Source: Polaribacter sp. Q13
GTDB taxonomy: Bacteria > Bacteroidota > Bacteroidia > Flavobacteriales > Flavobacteriaceae
Direction of reading: 5' to 3'
DNA length: 64,000 nucleotides
NCBI RefSeq assembly: GCF_016858305.2
Contig: NZ_CP074436.1
Location: 3,926,001-3,990,000 of the forward strand
Position numbers and translations under genes: made by a program. Position 1 is the first letter of the stretch. Each line of letters opens with the position of its first letter. Below are positions 1 to 53,913 of the stretch, in pieces. The notes under the pieces were generated by a model. The model was not told the origin of the DNA, did not search any database, and was given only the letters and a program-made list of their open reading frames with translations.

Positions 1-3000
1 GCTCAGTACTGGCTTCAATCCAATTAGTTCCATTTAACAATAATGCATACACCGCTTCAGAAGTTGCCTTGGTGGTATTCCAACTATTGGTTTGCTTGTT
101 TTTTAGCAACCAAATTTTTAGGTTGTCAATGGTTTCTGTATTGTTTTCTATTTCAGAAAATGTTTCAATCATTAATGCTTGAGTTTCTATAGGAGCTTGA
201 TAATAATAGTAACCAGCAGCGTTTTCTTTCCAATACATTCCTAATTCATCAGAAGTAATTGAATTTTCTTTTAAGGATTTTAAAATCTGACTTGCAGTTA
301 TTTTTTCATCGCTTCTAAAAAGCGATAAAGCAATTTGTCCTTTTGCATATAAATTATAGTCATTCCAATAGGTAACAGTTTGATTTCTGTAATAAGCAAC
401 CGCTTTTTGCAAGTTGTTATTCATAGAAATGGAAGAATAAAAACTACGCATATACAAATACTGAATGGTAAAATAGTTCAGATTGTTTTTAGCCAAATAG
501 TTGTCATAATCTTCTTTACCTTTTTTTTCTGTTTTGGCTTTCTGTTTAATTTCTTCTGCTCTTTCTATGAGTTTATTGTATTGTTCTAATAATTCTCCAT
601 CTAAATAATTAACAGATTTTTCTATTATTTTTTTAGTTGATGGTTCGAAATTTTCTGCACCTAATTTTGATAAATGTCCAAAACCAGTTGCAATATGTTG
701 TGTAATAAAATTACTTTCATATCGTCCGCCTTTAAACCAAGGAAATCCACCAGAATTCATCTGAATGTCTTCTAATTTATTGATGGCCTTTTCTTGATCA
801 TTTTTCATCTTATTCAAGTCGAATAATAAAGCGATTCTCTTTTTTTGCTCGGTTTCAGATTGCGCATCTCTTAACCAAGGAGTTTCTTGAATTATTAATG
901 ATTTTAATTCTTGATTCTTCTCTAAATTAGATAATAAAGCATCAGAAGATTTCCAAGCATTAAATACTTTTTGAATTCTAGGATTAGAATTTGCGACAAA
1001 ACTTGCCAAGGTATTTGCATAATATCTAGAGAAAACTTGTTCTGCACATTCATACGGATATTCCATTAAATATGGCAAAGATTGAATTGCATACCAAACT
1101 GGGTTTGACGTCATTTCTAAAGTCAATTTGTGGTTTTTTAAAGTAGAAGACGAGCCTGCACTGAGCGTAGACGAAGTGTTCTTTAACTTATCTAAGGTAA
1201 AAGTTTTTGTTTCGTTAGATTTTATCCACATTGGTAAGGTTTCTGTTACCAACATCCTGTTGGATAAAACGGGTAAAACATTTTGTTCACCATCAGAGAA
1301 ATCACCAGCTTTAGCCACAATTTTATATTGTACCGCTTGCACCGTTTCTGGAATTGATAATTGCCAAGATACATTGGTATTTCCGTCTTTATTTACTGTA
1401 AAGTTTTTAGTAGAATTAGTGTTTTCTAAATCAATATTAATTTCTTTGTTTGTAATTGCGTCCGTTAACATTAATTTTGCGAAACCACTTAATTGGTTAT
1501 TTGTTAAGTTGGTAATTTTTGCACTTAAAGTAATTTTATCTCCTTCACGTAAAAATCTTGGTGCATTTGGCACTATCATTAATTCTTTTTGCGTAACCGT
1601 TTCTAATGTTTTGGTTGCCGATTTTAAAGATTTAGTATGTGCTAGTAATTGTAATTTCCAACGTGTTAATGCTTCTGGCATTGTAAAAGAAAAACTGACT
1701 TGTCCGTTTTTATCTGTTCTTAATTGTGGAAAAAAGAAAGCGGTTTCTTTAAAGTTTTTTCGTGCTTCTATTTGTGATAATTGATTGTTTATAGCTTTTT
1801 TGGTATTAATTATAATTACGCCATTTAAACCTCTTTGTCCATATAAAGAAATGGCAGCAGCATCTTTTAGAATATCCATTTCTAAAATTTCATTAAGGTT
1901 TATACTTTCAACCTCTAATTTTGTCATTACTTTTCCATCAACCACATATAATGCCTCTGTAACGTTGTCTAAACTACCTATGCCTCTTATTAGAATATTT
2001 GCAGAGCCATTATCAACATTTATACCTGAAACTTGTCCTTGAAGAGCTTCTTCTAACTCAATTCCAGGAGCCATTTCGTTTGCTGTTTTTACACTCCATT
2101 TCATAACAGCGCCAGTCATGTCTTTTCTCTTCTGAGCTCCATAACCAATTATAACAACTTCGTCTAAAGAATTTAGGTTTTCCTTTAAGGCCACGTTAAG
2201 TATAGAAAAGTCTTCTACTTTTATATCTATATCATTAAAACCTAAATAATTAAACGTTAAAATATCTCCTTTTTTTATTTTAATGGAATAGTTTCCATCA
2301 AAGTCTGTTACTTTTCCTGTTAAACTACCTTTAACTGTAACATTAGCCCCTGGTATTGGTTCATTATATTTATCAGTTACAATTCCACTAATAGTACCAT
2401 TAAATTTACCCGATTTTTTAAATATAGCTTTGAATTTTATGTTTTTTAATTTATTAGTTATATCTCTTAAATATTGTTGATTTGTCCACCTATTATTTAG
2501 CAAACTAAACCCAAACCAGTTATAAGTATCATAAGAAATAGAAGGAAAACCGTAATAGCTACGTTGATTATTTCTGATATTAAAATTAATATTTCCAAAA
2601 CTATTACGAGCGTTACTTGTATTGTAAGAACTGTAAGTTGCTTTAGGTGTATTAGGGTTAAATTGCCAATTATGCGTCTTAAATTGATCTAAAGAAGCAT
2701 CGTACATAGAAGCTAAAACTTCCGCAGAAATTTTATCATCTTTGTCGTTTTTTATGGTGAAACTCCAAGTTTCATCTTGTCCTGGTTGTAATTTATCTCT
2801 AAAAATATTGGTTTCAATGGCTATTTTTGCTTGTTCTTCAATTACATTAATTAGTAAACTTCCACTTTTAAAATAATTGTAATTTACAAAGTGATATTTA
2901 ACAGCAAAACCACCAATATCTTCTTTGTTAACCGGTATTTTTAGTGTTTTTGTTTTATTATTTAAATGAATTAAATGTGTTTCTATAATTTTATGATTCT

Positions 3001-6000
3001 TTTCAATTTGTACAATAACCGTTATGTCTTTTGATGCAGAACCAATAGTTACTTCTGCAATATTATTAACAGTATAAGAAGTTTTGTTGGTATTAATAAC
3101 AAACAATTTATTGTCTGCAACTTTATTTTCTTTGGTATTAAAAAGAGAGAATTTTTGCTCATCTTTTACAGGGTTTCCAAATTTATCTTTACTTTCTAAA
3201 ACGGCAATATATTGTCCGGAAAACCATTTTTTAATGTTTTTAAGTTGCAGTTCTTTTGATGTTTCTGTATCAAAATCACTTAAAAAAACCATTTCACCTT
3301 TTTTCCACTCTTTTTCATCAGCTTCATTTTCAGAATAAGGATCATTAGGAAACAGTTTTCTAAATTCAGTAATAGAAATATCTTGATAATCTGGCGAGTT
3401 CCACGGACTTTTTCTCAGCGGATTCTTTGGTGAAATTAATTTGTATATTTTAATGTTTCCTTTTGCAGGAACAAACTCGCCGTTTAAATTCTTGGTAGCA
3501 ATAGTTAAAGTGGTTTCTTTTTGGTTTTTATCAATTTTATCATCTAAAGAAATAGTTGCTAATAAAGAATGGTAACCTACTTTAACATTGGTTGTAACGC
3601 TGTGGCTTTCTCCATTTACATCCGTAATATCTGCCGTAACTTCATACGTAAAAATGGGTAAATCTTCTTTAGAAACATTTTCATCTGGCATCGCTTTAAA
3701 TATAATTTTAAAAGCACCATTTTCATCCGTTTTGCTTTCTCCGTGTGTAATTTCTTGCGGACTAGAAGTAGTATTTGGTCTTCTCCAATAATACCAACTC
3801 GGGTATTGTACTTTTCTGTGGACACGGTACACCACTTTTGCATCTGTAATATTTGCACCAGAAAAGGCTTTTGCAAAACCATTTACCGTAATAGAATCGT
3901 TAATTTTAAAACTTTCGGTAACGGGTTTAAATTGGGCTTCAAATTTTGGTCTTTTGTATTCTTCTACAGAAATGTGTGTTCTGCGAGTATGAAAATCATA
4001 ATCTTTATTGTCATAAAATTTACTGTCATGCTCTGTACTTTCATTAATTTGGATACTAAATTTACCTGTTAAACCATTGCTAGGTAAAATAAACTCCCCT
4101 GCTACAGAACCAAACTCGTTGAGTATTAAATTAAGTGTTTTTACTTTTTGATTATTAACATCTCTTAAAATAATTTCTATATATTCATTTTTAAAAACTT
4201 CAGATTTTTTTCCTTGTTTTTTAATAACAATTGTTTTAAAATAAACGGTTTGTCCTGGTCTATAAATACTTCTATCTGTAAAAATAAAAGGGACAAGACT
4301 TTCTTCGACTTCTTCAATAGATTTTCTATTGTTTTTATGTAAATAAAAATTACCAAAACGGGCAAAATCAGTATCCGTTTTTACGGTGATTTCTACCTTA
4401 CTATAATTAGTGTCGCTTTTAAAAGAAGCAAAACCATTTTTGTCTGTAATTAGTTTTCTATTGATAGATGAACCTCTGTTATTTTTTTTGCTTTTTAAAT
4501 GAATCTCTGCATTTTTAATTGGTTTTCCGTTATTTCTATCAACAATTTGATAATTATGTTTGTTGTCAAAATTGTTTTCAATAATTGTTAAATTTGTTAC
4601 TTGAAAAGAGGTAGTTCCAAAGAGTTCATTTTCTTTTAAAACAGTGTTTTCTGAAGTTATAATTAAGTAAGTTCCTTTATTAGCTTTAGGTACAATTACT
4701 TCGGTAGAATGTTGTAAGTAATCATTTTCGTTACGTAATTTTGAAGTCCAATTACTTACGTTTTCTAACGTATTTATTAATTTTATTTTTTCTTTTAATT
4801 GATAGACTTTGTTAAATTGATACAACTGCTTATTGGTTATTTTATAGACCTTAAAATTTAAAGTATCAATATTTTTATAGTTGATTAATAATCTAGAGTT
4901 TTTCTGAATTGGAATACTTTTTTCTGCCGTAATAAATAGTGTTTTTTCTAAAATTTGATTTTTAAGTATTGTGCATTTTTTAGCACCTAAACTTTTTGGA
5001 AAACGTTTAATTATTGAATTGCAAATTTCTAAAGCTTCCTTATTTTTATACCTGTCTTTTTCTGCTGTGTTAGCAAGATAAGAATTGGCTTTGTTATTGT
5101 ATGTTTTAGCAATTTCAAAAGCATATAAACCACTAGCTTCATTTGTTTTAGTTTTTTCTTTTGATGCTTTTAAGGTTGATACTAAAATTGCTTCTTTATC
5201 ATTAAAAGTAGCATGATTATTTACAAAGTTTAATCTATGAATATCAATATCTACCAACGCGTCTAAATTGTTGTTTTTTAAATGAAACAGTATTAGTTCT
5301 TGATAAATTTTTAGGGCATTAAATTCTAAAGATAAAGTGTCTTTTGAAGTAATATTTAGTTTAGAAAAAGTGTTATAATTCCCTAAAAAATCAGGGTTAT
5401 CAATACTGAATTTATAAGACGGTCTTGTAATAGAGGTTTCTGAAGATTTATAGAATTCTAAAGCATTGTTTGCAAGAAAATCATATAAAGTAGGTCTGTA
5501 TGTTTTAGACTCTTTAGAGATTTGTAAAATATCTGAATAATCATAAATACCTGTTTTCTGTAATTCTTCTACATTCTCTAAAGAACTCTCAAAATGACAA
5601 TGTATTTCTTTAAAAAGCGTTTCTAAATCCCAAGTTCTAAAGTCGTTATTATCTACTTTGTTCGCTGTTTTTGTTCGGTTGTAAAACTTGTATCTATTTC
5701 CATTGAAATATTGCCAATACAAATTAGCTAAAACATTTTCTAACACGTTTTTTGTTGGAAATGTACTAGTAGCAATCTGTTTTTTTAAATTTTCTATTAC
5801 TTTTAATTGAGCATCTTCTTCTAGCGTTAATGAAAATTTACTTTTATAAAAAAGTGATTTAATTAGCTGAGAAGAATTATGTTCTTTCTCTGCCTCTGTG
5901 TAAATTTTGTCTACAATTTTTAAAGCAGACTTTGGTAAATTGTCTATTTCGAAACCTTCTACTTGTAACCAAAGGTTCTCAAAAGAGTTTTGGGCGTTAG

Positions 6001-6052
6001 AAATAGAAGCGAATGCTAGAATCATTATTAATGTTGATGTAATTTTTTTCAT
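1..6052 (-). CDS. Alpha-2-macroglobulin family protein with inserted TonB-plug module (3' end outside window)
   Basis: The frame is open from ATG at 6052 to the window edge, at least 2017 codons. An in-frame ATG at 6058 is an alternative start. Residues 1-21 form a Sec signal peptide ending SNAQ. Residues 22 to about 560 look helical and repetitive. The MG2-type signature DRSIYRPGQ starts at residue 593 and macroglobulin-like beta domains follow. Residues about 1219-1300 are a carboxypeptidase-regulatory-like fold (ISGIVTDKYNEPIPGANV), followed to about 1417 by a TonB-plug-like stretch (SLDEVVIIGYG, LQGQVSGINV, ILIRGIGSL, GVIIINTKK). The thioester motif C1669-A-E-Q keeps the reactive Cys and Gln and opens the alpha/alpha thioester domain. 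Known bacterial A2Ms are periplasmic protease traps or envelope guards. The plug insertion suggests an outer-membrane or transport link, which is inference. Family call firm, exact role unknown. Confidence 0.9.
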   Translation of the reverse strand, partial: MKKITSTLIMILAFASISNAQNSFENLWLQVEGFEIDNLPKSALKIVDKIYTEAEKEHNSSQLIKSLFYKSKFSLTLEEDAQLKVIENLKKQIATSTFPTKNVLENVLANLYWQYFNGNRYKFYNRTKTANKVDNNDFRTWDLETLFKEIHCHFESSLENVEELQKTGIYDYSDILQISKESKTYRPTLYDFLANNALEFYKSSETSITRPSYKFSIDNPDFLGNYNTFSKLNITSKDTLSLEFNALKIYQELILFHLKNNNLDALVDIDIHRLNFVNNHATFNDKEAILVSTLKASKEKTKTNEASGLYAFEIAKTYNNKANSYLANTAEKDRYKNKEALEICNSIIKRFPKSLGAKKCTILKNQILEKTLFITAEKSIPIQKNSRLLINYKNIDTLNFKVYKITNKQLYQFNKVYQLKEKIKLINTLENVSNWTSKLRNENDYLQHSTEVIVPKANKGTYLIITSENTVLKENELFGTTSFQVTNLTIIENNFDNKHNYQIVDRNNGKPIKNAEIHLKSKKNNRGSSINRKLITDKNGFASFKSDTNYSKVEITVKTDTDFARFGNFYLHKNNRKSIEEVEESLVPFIFTDRSIYRPGQTVYFKTIVIKKQGKKSEVFKNEYIEIILRDVNNQKVKTLNLILNEFGSVAGEFILPSNGLTGKFSIQINESTEHDSKFYDNKDYDFHTRRTHISVEEYKRPKFEAQFKPVTESFKINDSITVNGFAKAFSGANITDAKVVYRVHRKVQYPSWYYWRRPNTTSSPQEITHGESKTDENGAFKIIFKAMPDENVSKEDLPIFTYEVTADITDVNGESHSVTTNVKVGYHSLLATISLDDKIDKNQKETTLTIATKNLNGEFVPAKGNIKIYKLISPKNPLRKSPWNSPDYQDISITEFRKLFPNDPYSENEADEKEWKKGEMVFLSDFDTETSKELQLKNIKKWFSGQYIAVLESKDKFGNPVKDEQKFSLFNTKENKVADNKLFVINTNKTSYTVNNIAEVTIGSASKDITVIVQIEKNHKIIETHLIHLNNKTKTLKIPVNKEDIGGFAVKYHFVNYNYFKSGSLLINVIEEQAKIAIETNIFRDKLQPGQDETWSFTIKNDKDDKISAEVLASMYDASLDQFKTHNWQFNPNTPKATYSSYNTSNARNSFGNINFNIRNNQRSYYGFPSISYDTYNWFGFSLLNNRWTNQQYLRDITNKLKNIKFKAIFKKSGKFNGTISGIVTDKYNEPIPGANVTVKGSLTGKVTDFDGNYSIKIKKGDILTFNYLGFNDIDIKVEDFSILNVALKENLNSLDEVVIIGYGAQKRKDMTGAVMKWSVKTANEMAPGIELEEALQGQVSGINVDNGSANILIRGIGSLDNVTEALYVVDGKVMTKLEVESINLNEILEMDILKDAAAISLYGQRGLNGVIIINTKKAINNQLSQIEARKNFKETAFFFPQLRTDKNGQVSFSFTMPEALTRWKLQLLAHTKSLKSATKTLETVTQKELMIVPNAPRFLREGDKITLSAKITNLTNNQLSGFAKLMLTDAITNKEINIDLENTNSTKNFTVNKDGNTNVSWQLSIPETVQAVQYKIVAKAGDFSDGEQNVLPVLSNRMLVTETLPMWIKSNETKTFTLDKLKNTSSTLSAGSSSTLKNHKLTLEMTSNPVWYAIQSLPYLMEYPYECAEQVFSRYYANTLASFVANSNPRIQKVFNAWKSSDALLSNLEKNQELKSLIIQETPWLRDAQSETEQKKRIALLFDLNKMKNDQEKAINKLEDIQMNSGGFPWFKGGRYESNFITQHIATGFGHLSKLGAENFEPSTKKIIEKSVNYLDGELLEQYNKLIERAEEIKQKAKTEKKGKEDYDNYLAKNNLNYFTIQYLYMRSFYSSISMNNNLQKAVAYYRNQTVTYWNDYNLYAKGQIALSLFRSDEKITASQILKSLKENSITSDELGMYWKENAAGYYYYQAPIETQALMIETFSEIENNTETIDNLKIWLLKNKQTNSWNTTKATSEAVYALLLNGTNWIEASTE
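1159..1178. repeat. GAGCGTAG-type short repeat inside the A2M coding region
   Basis: The 20-mer CACTGAGCGTAGACGAAGTG has CACT/AGTG ends. It is GC-richer than its surroundings and differs by one base, from memory, from a CACTGAGCGTAGTCGAAGTG-type repeat common between genes of Flavobacteriaceae. It lies in codons for a Ser/Thr-rich linker (TSSTLSAGSSS) upstream of the thioester domain and keeps the frame open. Repeat identity is recalled, not searched. Confidence 0.35.
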
Positions 6053-6096
6053 TATCATAAGATTTAATGCTGTAAAGCACGTTTAAATCGATTTTA

Positions 6097-6222: not shown

Positions 6223-7575
6223 ATGAAAATTCACTTTATTGCTATTGGCGGAAGCGCAATGCACAACTTAGCAATTGCTTTACACCAAAAAGGATACCAA
6301 GTTTCTGGTTCTGATGATACAATTCACAATCCTTCTAAATCTAGATTAGAAAAATATGGTTTGTTACCAGAAGAATTTGGCTGGTTTCCAGAAAAAATAG
6401 CGTCTAACCTAGATGCAATTATTTTGGGAATGCATGCTAAAATTGACAATCCAGAGTTGTTAAAGGCACAAGAATTAGGTTTAAAAATTTATTCTTATCC
6501 AGAATTTTTATACGAACAATCTAAAGATAAAACGCGAGTTGTTATTGGAGGTTCTCATGGAAAAACAACCATTACTTCTATGATTCTACATGTATTAAAT
6601 TATCATGAAAAAGAAGTAGATTACATGGTTGGTGCGCAATTAGAAGGTTTTGAAACCATGGTGCATTTAACTGAAGAAAACGATTTTATTGTTTTAGAAG
6701 GTGATGAGTACTTGAGTTCGCCAATAGATATGAGACCAAAGTTTCATTTATACAAACCAAATATTGCGTTATTAAGCGGGATTGCTTGGGATCATATTAA
6801 TGTTTTTCCAACATTTGAAGGGTATGTAGAGCAGTTTAAAATCTTTACAGATTCTATGGTAAACGGAGGAAGTATGGTTTATAATGAAGAAGATGCAATT
6901 GTAAAAGAGGTTGTAGAATCATCAGAAAATCATATTAAGAAGTATCCTTATACGACACCTAAACATTTTATTGAAAACGGAATTACCTATTTAGAAACAT
7001 CAGAAGGAAACTTACCATTAGAGGTTTTTGGAAAACACAATCTTCAAAATTTAGCAGGAGCAAAGTGGATTTGTCAGCACATGGGAATTGATGAAGATGA
7101 TTTTTATGAAGCCATTGCTAGTTTTGCAGGAGCAAGCAAGCGATTAGAGAAAATTGTAGAAACTCCATCAACAGTAATTTTTAAAGACTTTGCACACTCA
7201 CCAAGTAAAGTGGAGGCAACTACAAAAGCCGTAAAAGAACAATATTCTGAGAGAACTGTTTTGGCTTGTTTAGAATTACATACCTATTCTAGTTTAAATG
7301 CTGAGTTTTTAGCAGAATATAAAGGAGCCTTAGATGCAGCTGACAAAGCGGTGGTGTTTTATTCTCCGCATGCCGTGAAAATTAAACAATTATCAGCCGT
7401 TACTGCGGAACAAATTGCAAACGCTTTTGAAAGAGATGATTTGGTTATTTATACGAATCCCGATGAATTTAAAGCATTCTTATTTAGTCAGAATTTAGAG
7501 AAAACAGCAGTTGTTTTAATGAGTTCTGGTAATTATGGAGGTTTAGATTTTGAAGAGGTTAAAGGTTTGGTTTAG
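6223..7575 (+). CDS. mpl: Mpl-type Mur ligase (UDP-MurNAc:tripeptide ligase family)
   Basis: A 450-residue cytoplasmic Mur ligase. Enzymes of the Mpl branch attach recycled murein tripeptide to UDP-MurNAc in ATP-dependent peptidoglycan recycling. The N-terminal Rossmann-like domain begins MKIHFIAIGGSAMHN. The ATP-binding loop GSHGKTT is at about residues 110-116. The central domain has LEGDEYLSS, and the C-terminal ligase domain contains FKDFAHSPSKVEAT. ATG 6223 is preferred over the upstream in-frame TTG 6193 because MKIHFIAIGG is the conserved family start and the TTG lies within the predicted promoter. The last 17 bp overlap the convergent nucleotidyltransferase gene. The alternative is a MurC-like ligase; AIGGSAMHN and the absence of other mur genes favour Mpl. 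Confidence 0.85.
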   Translation: MKIHFIAIGGSAMHNLAIALHQKGYQVSGSDDTIHNPSKSRLEKYGLLPEEFGWFPEKIASNLDAIILGMHAKIDNPELLKAQELGLKIYSYPEFLYEQSKDKTRVVIGGSHGKTTITSMILHVLNYHEKEVDYMVGAQLEGFETMVHLTEENDFIVLEGDEYLSSPIDMRPKFHLYKPNIALLSGIAWDHINVFPTFEGYVEQFKIFTDSMVNGGSMVYNEEDAIVKEVVESSENHIKKYPYTTPKHFIENGITYLETSEGNLPLEVFGKHNLQNLAGAKWICQHMGIDEDDFYEAIASFAGASKRLEKIVETPSTVIFKDFAHSPSKVEATTKAVKEQYSERTVLACLELHTYSSLNAEFLAEYKGALDAADKAVVFYSPHAVKIKQLSAVTAEQIANAFERDDLVIYTNPDEFKAFLFSQNLEKTAVVLMSSGNYGGLDFEEVKGLV

Positions 7576-8671
7576 TTTTTTTTAGACCAAGTTGAATAAG
7601 TTTTATTTGTATCCAATGTTTATCCGTTACTCTATTTAATAGCCACTTCCTATAAGCTTTGTCAAAAAATGATTTATAAATAATGCTCAATCTCTTTTTT
7701 ATAAAAAGAATATTTTCTGTTTTTTTATGCCTTTTAACTTTTAAAACATTATTATTTAGTTGCTTATAAAAAATGTTTAGATAACTTTCTATTTCTACAG
7801 TAGAATTATATTTTAAAGAAGTTGGTCTATTAAAAACTTCAAAACAACTTGCATAAAAACAATTTAAAGGGGTTTTTAATTTTTGAAATTCATCAAAACC
7901 TTTATTTGAATTTATTTTTTTAGAAAGTAAAAAAACATCGTATGCATTTCTTAAAGAAATATTTTTGAAGTGAAATCCATTATCATTTATTTGAGTAGCA
8001 ATAATTGATAAAGCTAGTTGATTTTCAAAACTAATTACATTTATTTTATTTATTATTTGCGAGTTTTTCTTTACAATATTATAATTAAACTCATCGGCAT
8101 ATTTTTCAATTAATAATTCTTTATGAATTTCTACAGCAGCAATTTTTTTTAACTTTTGTAGTCTTGGATGGTGTTTAAATTGAGGGAAATCGTATGTAGT
8201 TTTATGTACTTTAGAATATTCATTATTTGTTAATAATTTGATTGCTTTTGTATAATCTTCTTCGGAGAAAATAAAATCAATATCGCCAACCATTCTTTCA
8301 CCAATATCTTCGTATAATCCTTCAAGTAAGTTTCCGGTTCCTTTTAAGAAAATTGGAGTAATATTGTTTGTTAATAAAAGTTCATTTATTTCTTTAGCCT
8401 GCTCAATAATTTGCTCATTTCTCTCTCTATTTAAATTAGTAATATGAATCATATAATTCACTAATTCTTCTGGTAAATAATGCAAGAAATTGGCTCTTTT
8501 AAGATTGCAATACAAAGCAGGGAATACAAAATGACCAGTACTTACTTTTACAACGGAATCCCAATCTATTTCTGTAGTTTTTAATTGTATTTCTATCTCT
8601 TGTTTGTTTTTTTCTTCCGAAGAAATTGTTAAACATTTAGCTACAAAAAAGAGTGTTTCTTTATAATTCAT
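7559..8671 (-). CDS. Nucleotidyltransferase family protein (PF14907-like)
   Basis: A 370-residue protein with the hallmarks of the 'uncharacterised nucleotidyltransferase' family PF14907: ITPIFLKGTGNL followed by ERMVGDIDFIF at about residues 105-135, where the D-x-D pair would bind metal, then a helical C-terminal half. No transmembrane segment or signal peptide is visible. The start codon overlaps the end of the upstream PqqD/HPr-kinase-like gene by 11 bp, so the two are surely co-transcribed and probably translationally coupled. Its end overlaps mpl by 17 bp, tail to tail. Relatives occur in some lasso-peptide and capsule clusters (established for the paeninodin type), but the substrate here is unknown. 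Family call good, role open. Confidence 0.8.
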   Translation of the reverse strand: MNYKETLFFVAKCLTISSEEKNKQEIEIQLKTTEIDWDSVVKVSTGHFVFPALYCNLKRANFLHYLPEELVNYMIHITNLNRERNEQIIEQAKEINELLLTNNITPIFLKGTGNLLEGLYEDIGERMVGDIDFIFSEEDYTKAIKLLTNNEYSKVHKTTYDFPQFKHHPRLQKLKKIAAVEIHKELLIEKYADEFNYNIVKKNSQIINKINVISFENQLALSIIATQINDNGFHFKNISLRNAYDVFLLSKKINSNKGFDEFQKLKTPLNCFYASCFEVFNRPTSLKYNSTVEIESYLNIFYKQLNNNVLKVKRHKKTENILFIKKRLSIIYKSFFDKAYRKWLLNRVTDKHWIQIKLIQLGLKKTKPNL

Positions 8672-9800
8672 TTTTAAATATTTTCGAAACCGCTTTTATC
8701 ATTTCTTCATTATTAGAGTAGGTTAGTTGGTAACAGTTTAAAGTACTAAACCAATCTAAAAATATTTGTGCATTTTCTTTTTTTGGAGAGATCCAAGAGT
8801 CTGGAATTAATTGCTGAAAAGCAGTTAATTTAGAAATTTTCTCACAAGTTAAATCAGCATCTTTTTCATATTTAATAAAGACCAAATCATTACATGGTAA
8901 ATGATTAAAGTAATTAGTATTGTTGGGTTTTAAATATCGTACAACCTTGTTTAATCGGGTAAAGTTATATTCTGCGGATGTTTCTAATTCAGGATAAATA
9001 GGAAGCAACGTTTCTAAACTGTTTTGTTTGATGGATATGGATGCAGGAAAACTGTACACTTCTCTTTTTTCGATATCTATAGGTACAAAATCGTCTGCTA
9101 AACACGTAAAACCGTGTGCTTGTAATAGTGCTAATGAGGTACTTTTTCCGTTGCCTGAATCACCTAGAAATAAGATTGATTTCTTTTCATCGCTTACAGC
9201 GGATGCGTGAAAAACCCCCATCCATTTATCTTCTTCTTTCTGATGAATTTTCTGAATAAATTGCATAGAAAACTTTCCTTGAAAATAATGAATATCATTA
9301 TGACTCCAAGCTCCTATTAGGTTTTTATCAACTATAAGAAAGATGAATTTATTGTTTATAAAAACATCAAATTCATAGTCAAATTTGGTGGTATCATTAA
9401 TCACTAGATGAGCAAACTTTGGATGCACTAGAGAAAGCTCTTTTTCGCTTAAATAAGAAACTTTAAAAACAACGTTGTTAACTTTGTAATACTTTATAAA
9501 TTCAAATGAAGTAGGCGTTTTAAGGTCTTTGTAATCTTGGAGTATTTCGGACTCAATATCATTTTTTGTTTCGTAGAATTTTTCTTCTAAATCGATAATA
9601 AAATCGATAGTACTATCTGCGGGCACTCCTAGTTTTTTAGATAAACCTTGTGCTATGTCATTAACAGATATGCCTTCATTTAACCTTTTTAAAATATCGG
9701 CTGTTTTATTTTCTAAAATTAGATATTCATTATTGTTTTCAAACCAAACAATAGTTTTATCTTCTGCTGTCTTGTATAAGAAATTTGATTGTTTTTTCAT
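8661..9800 (-). CDS. PqqD-like (RRE) domain fused to HPr-kinase-like domain
   Basis: A 379-residue protein. Residues about 15-75 (EYLILENKTADILKRLNEG...) resemble PqqD, the fold that binds RiPP leader peptides. Residues about 190-379 resemble HPr kinase/phosphorylase: WMGVFHASAV at 193-202, Walker A GDSGNGKST at 213-221 and LADDFVPI at 234-241. True HPr kinase is shorter and has no PqqD domain, so this is not the carbon-catabolite regulator. HPr-kinase-like enzymes in lasso-peptide clusters phosphorylate the precursor. Here no lasso cyclase, B1/B2 protease or precursor is adjacent. It has its own promoter and overlaps the downstream nucleotidyltransferase. The function, perhaps phosphorylating a peptide or glycan, is inference. 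Confidence 0.8.
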   Translation of the reverse strand: MKKQSNFLYKTAEDKTIVWFENNNEYLILENKTADILKRLNEGISVNDIAQGLSKKLGVPADSTIDFIIDLEEKFYETKNDIESEILQDYKDLKTPTSFEFIKYYKVNNVVFKVSYLSEKELSLVHPKFAHLVINDTTKFDYEFDVFINNKFIFLIVDKNLIGAWSHNDIHYFQGKFSMQFIQKIHQKEEDKWMGVFHASAVSDEKKSILFLGDSGNGKSTSLALLQAHGFTCLADDFVPIDIEKREVYSFPASISIKQNSLETLLPIYPELETSAEYNFTRLNKVVRYLKPNNTNYFNHLPCNDLVFIKYEKDADLTCEKISKLTAFQQLIPDSWISPKKENAQIFLDWFSTLNCYQLTYSNNEEMIKAVSKIFKNEL

Positions 9801-9806
9801 AAAGAA

Positions 9807-9835
9807 TAAAAGTAGTTATTTTATTACTTATACAA
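9807..9835 (-). promoter_or_regulatory. Candidate promoter of the PqqD/HPr-kinase-like operon
   Basis: On the minus strand TTG (9835-9833) is followed after about 18 bp by TACTTTTA (9814-9807), close to the Bacteroidota TAnnTTTG -7 element. The start codon at 9800 is only 6 bp downstream, so the transcript would be nearly leaderless. Confidence 0.4.
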
Positions 9836-9844
9836 AACAAAAAT

Positions 9845-9860
9845 GCCTCAAAATTGAGGC
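9845..9860 (-). terminator. Terminator of trkA-trkH
   Basis: A 7-bp stem GCCTCAA/TTGAGGC with a tight AA loop is followed on the minus strand by ATTTTTGTTTTG. It lies 64 bp after the trkH stop and separates this operon from the next minus-strand unit. Confidence 0.6.
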
Positions 9861-9923
9861 GTTTGTTATTTAAAAATAATTATGGTTATCAAATATTTTT
9901 TTTAATAAAAGTATACCTTAAAC

Positions 9924-53831: not shown

Positions 53832-53913
53832 TTAAATATTTTAATTTGATGGGAATAAGATTATCGAAGGAGAAAGCCTTAATTCATAATCCCTATCTAT
53901 AACAACAAAAGAA

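Follow-up and report, generated by a model that had tools for sequence, protein, structure and literature searches.

What do a kinase and a nucleotidyltransferase act on when they are encoded side by side, with no substrate gene in sight? This question is raised by one locus of Polaribacter sp. Q13 (Flavobacteriaceae). Within the 64,000 nucleotides analysed here (NCBI RefSeq assembly GCF_016858305.2, contig NZ_CP074436.1, positions 3,926,001 to 3,990,000; the whole of this stretch is called the window), the gene KIN joins a PqqD-like part, resembling the recognition element (RRE) of ribosomally synthesised and post-translationally modified peptides (RiPPs), to an HprK-like kinase, and the gene NT encodes a PF14907 nucleotidyltransferase. 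A first-pass annotation had described this architecture, including an 11-bp overlap of the two genes, and our analysis confirmed both; it had considered the pair an orphan that possibly modifies a peptide or glycan in two steps, with the substrate encoded at a distance. Our observations comprise the architecture itself, the pairing of a small peptide gene with the gene for a large protein exported by the type IX secretion system (T9SS; the protein is called c1 here), the three-way co-occurrence of KIN, peptide and c1, and four c1-peptide cassettes unlinked to the pair in its own genome. On this base we consider it moderately probable that a RiPP-like peptide system linked to type IX secretion relies on KIN and NT as common maturation enzymes that act in trans. 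KIN, peptide and c1 are strongly associated; what the enzymes do chemically, and how the peptide contributes to c1 display, we infer. Functionally, the pair is probably no orphan.

The two genes occupy the following window positions:
8661-9800, minus strand: KIN, RRE (PqqD-like)-HprK-like kinase fusion, 379 aa
7559-8671, minus strand: NT, PF14907 nucleotidyltransferase, 370 aa

A peptide gene and a c1 gene recur upstream of KIN

Of 40 KIN neighbourhoods fetched from relatives, 32 contain a peptide gene, which recurs upstream of KIN on the same strand. Usually just upstream of the peptide lies c1, a protein of about 500-1450 aa with a conserved C-terminal region, whose cluster is represented in 31 of 41 loci (the window's included). 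A set of named loci (the best 80 of 142 confirmed, from Polaribacter, Tenacibaculum and others; some contigs end early) has a peptide gene at most 600 nt upstream of KIN in 49, c1 within 4 kb of KIN in 56 and NT downstream of KIN in 61, and five Tenacibaculum loci (L245, L246, L251, L253 and L257) carry tandem c1-peptide-c1-peptide-KIN-NT arrays. The company of the pair is not restricted to capsule genes: sugar-nucleotide genes neighbour some loci, and the recurring partner is the peptide gene.

Most peptide genes directly follow a c1 gene. In a set of 84 loci, made up of the four own-genome cassettes, 40 loci selected by KIN and 40 selected by peptides, a c1 match ends less than 400 nt upstream of 80 of the 87 peptide matches, mostly at 10-40 nt; five of these 80 adjacent c1 matches are weak (31-50 bits). 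The seven exceptions include one with c1 at 409 nt, two with c1 farther away and three without any c1. All three c1 proteins from relatives that were scored exceed the TIGR04183 and PF18962 cut-offs for the T9SS type A sorting domain, and the region before the sorting tail matched no single family clearly. Two properties distinguish c1 from T9SS type A cargo defined by TIGR04183 or PF18962: its 324-position profile (module plus tail) is nearly confined, at 1e-55, to genomes with KIN (28 of 30), and its gene is often followed by a peptide gene.

Several variations on the locus were also noted. At several loci outside Polaribacter (L080-L098) the cassette is often near ftsQ-ftsA-ftsZ-yqeY, an M90 peptidase gene and sugar-nucleotide genes; the seven recurring neighbours scanned in relatives are YqeY, the M90 peptidase, an epimerase, FtsA, FtsZ, FtsQ and a UDP-sugar dehydrogenase, and in some relatives the gene for the M90 peptidase is repeatedly seen on the other strand. 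At 13 loci (L079-L097) a protein of ~190 aa (cluster c3) is encoded directly after NT, on the same strand at 12 and on the opposite strand at L097; two c3 proteins tested matched no Pfam family above cut-off. A single 735-aa open reading frame (ORF) at L069:7240-9447 is a KIN-NT fusion. Genome G023 has two KIN genes (L066 and L067): beside one, neither NT nor peptide was found, and the other is accompanied by NT, with c1 and a peptide of a short-leader type ~3.5 kb upstream.

The peptides share a leader and a near-invariant core serine

The peptide genes are mostly 50-66 codons long, and their products of ~55 aa have a signal-like leader with the consensus I[TS]RKEA[LI]KK...GKYAALTAxGTY...LNP. 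Conservation among 143 distinct peptides is high at model positions R14 (98%), K15 (95%), A17 (98%), K23 (97%), Y24 (97%), T28 (97%), T32 (97%), L36 (99%), P38 (99%), Q42 (95%), S45 (98%) and G50 (90%). A near-invariant serine (98% of the 143) is the second residue after the KAQA site, at core position 2. The stretch following A-Q-A is most commonly 10 residues long (e.g., QSPESPGTGF or QSPEAPGTGF), some peptides have long tails, and cysteine is present in one of the 143. None of 24 peptides tested matched a Pfam or NCBIfam family at 0.01. The family numbers 3293 non-redundant members, and those among the 120 listed are named hypothetical or uncharacterized protein or are unnamed. One peptide of genome G002 lies within a 2260-codon frame and has the appearance of a c1-peptide fusion, from which we draw no conclusion.

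The start of the leader (T-R-K-E-A-L-K-K) is reminiscent of twin-arginine translocation (Tat) signals, and TatC is present. The twin-arginine motif itself, which we take to be [ST]RRx[FL], occurs in 0 of the 143 peptides, and [ST]R[KN][EDQ]A[LIMV] stands in its place in 135. Export by Sec is as likely as export by a Tat-like route, and A-Q-A is a putative signal peptidase site.

Four cassettes lie far from the pair in its own genome

The genome of Polaribacter sp. Q13 consists of one contig (C1) of 4.42 Mb, with KIN-NT at 3933559-3935800. As the first-pass annotation had noted, no precursor is visible beside the pair: the 123-bp gap upstream of KIN, which in many relatives is the site of a c1-peptide cassette, holds no peptide ORF, and c1 is likewise missing beside the pair. 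The genome was searched with a peptide profile made from 24 peptides of other genomes only and a c1 profile made from a region of 10 other proteins, neither of which contains an own-genome sequence. With the peptide profile, exactly four genes score strongly (E 4.3e-28 to 2.5e-24), besides a degenerate copy and one further weak match (E 1.1). The gap (window positions) and the peptide matches (contig positions) are:
9801-9923, no strand: KIN-TrkH gap, 123 bp
C1:606955-607122, plus strand: peptide gene 1
C1:1188544-1188711, minus strand: peptide gene 2
C1:3292201-3292359, minus strand: peptide gene 3
C1:4218560-4218706, plus strand: peptide gene 4
C1:1015948-1016073: probable relic of a peptide gene, degenerate and containing a stop (E 0.0075)

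The c1 profile produced 45 matches at 0.01, the top four of which (1.4e-111 to 2.3e-88; the fifth at 1.2e-34) lie directly 5' of the four peptide genes with gaps of 24-41 nt. All four c1 proteins score above the PF18962 cut-off for a T9SS tail. Every cassette is far from KIN-NT, the nearest ~280 kb away on the map, so that the earlier suggestion of a distant substrate is now well supported. When the leader stretch is compared pair by pair among these four genes, 94 of the 126 differences fall at third codon positions, which points to constraint at the protein level. In the first cassette (L126:7801-9934) the signal-peptide part of c1 is in a different frame from the remainder; this copy may therefore be damaged or misread.

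KIN, peptide and c1 occur together across genomes

Across 299 sampled Flavobacteriaceae genomes, KIN was counted in 28, the peptide in 30 and a strong c1 module in 30 (threshold 1e-55; at most seven candidates per genome were scored, and the c1 counts are therefore lower bounds). All three occur together in 28, and KIN never occurs without the other two, giving 2e-37 per pair in Fisher's test, which ignores shared ancestry and linkage. A 29th KIN match, in G179, is partial and was removed from the count because it covers residues 140-264 only (E 8.2e-6). The two genomes with a peptide and no KIN (G307 and G325) have copies that contain stops or a frame break. Up to 17 peptide matches were found per genome (G015), and c1 modules outnumber peptides in G100 (at least six versus one) and G191 (at least seven versus one). 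One peptide alongside several c1 proteins suggests that c1 needs the product of the peptide gene and not the gene pair as such.

The closest named relatives of the window's proteins are from Polaribacter, KIN being 88% identical to a P. sejongensis protein. KIN is present in 31 of 36 genomes of the genus (G031: a fragment only), and the 36, which include the own genome, have both KIN and peptide in 29 cases and neither in three. KIN was found in 0 of 23 genomes from other families of the order. A search of 392 genomes of the phylum matched KIN at 1e-6 in 46, at full length in only six; the other matches are limited to a portion of the kinase, in most cases near the P-loop, and were not counted. 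In the same 392 genomes the peptide profile matched 10 at 0.01, six strongly and four weakly. The six strong genomes are the same six that have full-length KIN, and all four weak matches are N-termini of longer proteins that resemble Tat signals on inspection. For the two-step modification system of the first-pass annotation, the peptide half has gained support from the presence of the family in 28 of 28 KIN genomes, 32 of 40 neighbourhoods and 49 of 80 named loci; the chemical steps are ones that we infer.

KIN is a predicted RRE-kinase fusion

Within the two proteins, the following parts were delineated (window positions):
9561-9800, minus strand: predicted RRE/PqqD-type winged helix, KIN residues 1-80, from an AlphaFold2 model and sub-threshold PqqD hidden Markov model (HMM) matches
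8664-9230, minus strand: HprK/PEPCK-type kinase domain, KIN residues 191-379
9138-9164, minus strand: P-loop GDSGNGKST, KIN residues 213-221
9090-9095, minus strand: DD, invariant acidic pair after the P-loop in alignments of 22 and of 72 sequences, KIN residues 236-237
8276-8344, minus strand: KG...R...DxD motif, NT residues 110-132

The AlphaFold2 model of KIN residues 1-80 (pLDDT, predicted local distance difference test, 92.3) has the topology E7-12, E15-20, E25-30, H31-41, H46-57, H61-76. PF05402 matches seven of 23 KIN N-domains, with a best E of 6.8e-4 and the window's own domain at 14 bits against a cut-off of 23.4; with the NCBIfam PqqD models the best match is 9.2e-5 and the window's domain reaches 14.6 of 70 and 14.1 of 110 bits. 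The modelled topology and these weak matches, taken with the definition of an RRE in PMC12710340, speak for a PqqD/RRE fold. No PqqD chain appeared in the structure-comparison list of KIN, in which residues 1-80 were hardly compared, and this is not evidence against the fold. RREs bind short leader or follower peptides (PMC12710340).

The kinase part combines an HprK fold, as seen by structure comparison, with the P-loop and the acidic pair. Residues G213, S215, G216, G218, K219, S220 and T221 are invariant in the alignments of 22 and of 72 sequences, and the DD pair resembles the HprK active site. KIN scores below the cut-offs of PF07475 (14.6 of 33.3 bits), TIGR00679 (14 of 240) and TIGR04352 (63 of 200). 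The last of these, HprK-related kinase A, is the family that the kinase part matches best (2.3e-17), and the RRE-like N-terminal part falls outside the match. NT passes PF14907 with 122.9 bits (cut-off 31.2), and K110, G111, R126, D130 and D132 are invariant in 21 aligned sequences. Single-sequence searches of KIN and NT against the sequences of solved structures returned no match, and profiles of the KIN N-domain and of NT returned weak matches only (best E 0.042 and 0.75, respectively).

A proposed maturation route and its relation to known systems

We hypothesise that KIN uses its predicted RRE domain to hold the ~55-aa precursor by the conserved leader and that the HprK-like domain would phosphorylate the near-invariant serine after KAQA, by analogy with LppK, which acts on Ser3 of its peptide, and with the paeninodin kinases, which act on a core serine. 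With less assurance, NT may then add a nucleotidyl or phosphosugar group to the phosphate; as NT is absent beside KIN in some loci, it may be optional. Export via Sec or a Tat-like route and a cut after A-Q-A would yield a decapeptide such as QSPEAPGTGF, and this product would serve the large T9SS-exported c1 proteins with their conserved C-terminal module. Tentatively, the pair could make a dedicated phosphopeptide or phosphosugar-peptide that acts as a prosthetic group, ligand or surface linker for T9SS proteins: a little-varying peptide of ~10 residues, encoded by one to seventeen scattered genes, which the c1 module binds or to which it is joined after export.

One of the two closest known parallels is the linear polyphosphorylated peptide (LPP) system of Bacillota (lppAKBSDN). 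Its linear precursor is the target of an HprK-like kinase, an RRE and a nucleoside triphosphate (NTP) transferase whose action is unknown; Ser3, near the core start, is the acceptor, and the core serine of LPPs carries several phosphates. The report on this system also describes a discrete RRE, a signal peptidase I (SpI)-like peptidase, an MsbA-like transporter, a YxxP leader motif, variable C-termini, occurrence in Bacillota only and clusters in or near capsule loci (PMC13381572). Both systems combine an HprK-like kinase and an NTP transferase with a small precursor, here by sequence, fold and co-occurrence only, and Ser3 has its counterpart in the serine at core position 2. In contrast to LPP, the RRE is fused to the kinase, the core varies little, the precursor genes are dispersed and form pairs with genes for T9SS proteins, and the hosts are Flavobacteriaceae. 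The SpI-like peptidase and MsbA-like transporter are not among the genes scanned, namely the window neighbours Mur ligase, TrkH and TrkA and the seven recurring neighbours in relatives. In paeninodin-type lasso peptides an HPr-kinase homologue phosphorylates a core serine, and in pseudomycoidin a nucleotidyltransferase puts one or two hexoses on that phosphate (PMC8498205). These systems share the kinase and nucleotidyltransferase homologues; they differ in that no macrolactam cyclase/synthetase or B2 protease gene flanks the window pair, as the first-pass annotation had already remarked of lasso genes (flanking genes only; the whole genome was not searched), and in that the conserved serine is at the core start here and at the core C-terminus there. 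The fused RRE, the different leader, the action in trans and the T9SS link thus set the system apart from both. In the open literature searched we found no paper joining T9SS with RiPP, precursor peptide and kinase, or with PqqD, none on twin-arginine and RiPP leader peptides in Bacteroid(ota) and none on Polaribacter T9SS and a small peptide; the main text of two RRE papers (PMC12710340 and PMC7470986) contains neither 'kinase' nor 'HPr'.

Alternative explanations

Could KIN and NT instead modify the C-terminal module of c1, with the peptide serving unmodified as chaperone, escort or membrane anchor? The c1 module does co-occur with KIN as tightly as the peptide (28 of 30 genomes), and its excess over peptides in G100 (at least six to one) and G191 (at least seven to one) would fit. 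We nevertheless judge this unlikely, as RREs are described as binding short leader or follower peptides (PMC12710340), the peptide has both a leader-like conserved N-terminal part and a conserved core serine, and c1, with its T9SS tail, is presumably exported, which makes cytoplasmic modification of its C-terminal module less likely. We likewise doubt that the product is a diffusible antimicrobial or signalling RiPP to which c1 is merely an operon neighbour. RRE, kinase and nucleotidyltransferase are found in lasso and LPP clusters (PMC8498205, PMC13381572), and some loci lie near sugar-nucleotide genes, a placement comparable to that of LPP clusters in or beside capsule loci. On the other side, the core is much alike across genera and present in up to 17 copies per genome, unlike the variable LPP C-termini, a c1 match sits directly upstream of 80 of 87 peptide matches, and the seven recurring neighbours that were scanned include no exporter. 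In a third reading the peptide would be a fragment of a Tat signal, degenerate or modified and conserved for export only, while KIN-NT acts on an unrelated substrate and simply travels with the cassette; this is very unlikely. The four inspected weak phylum matches and the presence of TatC lend themselves to such a view, whereas the occurrence of the peptide in all 28 KIN genomes of the sample and also at a distance from KIN, the conservation of the core past the cut site and the lack of the twin-arginine motif in all 143 peptides do not.

We prefer maturation of the peptide by KIN and NT; several observations weigh against it. Within the genus, KIN without a detected peptide occurs in G019 (93% complete) and G032 (75%), and peptide without detected KIN in G010 (90%) and G012 (67%); in the family sample, the c1 module occurs without KIN in G163 (partial) and G340. 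In G032, KIN at first appeared split, and it was counted because the two segments that matched share a single 378-codon frame. Eight of the 40 KIN neighbourhoods have no peptide. NT was looked for near KIN in the 73 named loci that have 2.5 kb or more of downstream sequence; it is broken or partial in seven of them and has left no nearby trace in 12. As the genes are linked in many co-occurring genomes, joint inheritance explains part of the pattern. The [YW]xxPx[LVIAFY] motif of LPP and lasso leaders occurs in 0 of the 143 peptides, the PqqD HMM matches are all under cut-off, and the comparison of KIN with PDB structures spanned mainly residues 81-379, with the N-domain hardly compared. Binding of the leader by KIN, phosphorylation and nucleotidyl transfer are proposed from sequence.

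Other features of the window

TrkH and TrkA are encoded upstream of KIN on the same strand, and a Mur ligase gene, probably that of Mpl, lies downstream of NT in convergent orientation. Two features elsewhere in the window were recorded:
2-6058, minus strand, running off the window: Alpha-2-macroglobulin-like protein (MG2, A2M bait region, A2M)
53859-53891, plus strand: S4-Flavobacteria ribosomal protein leader RNA (Rfam RF03141)

The Alpha-2-macroglobulin-like protein has a carboxypeptidase-regulatory-like domain at residues 1223-1303, and the stretch that follows resembles, by reading, a TonB-receptor plug.

Implications

With enzymes, precursors and likely partner proteins named, what looked like an orphan enzyme pair has become a system open to test. 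For genome mining it implies that precursors may sit hundreds of kilobases from their enzymes. If the proposal is right, RiPP chemistry by HprK-like kinases and NTP transferases would extend from Bacillota and lasso clusters to Bacteroidota, and peptide maturation would be linked to type IX secretion. Should the peptide prove to be a prosthetic group, ligand or linker, RiPP chemistry would gain a new use, within a secretion and display system and not in a free natural product.

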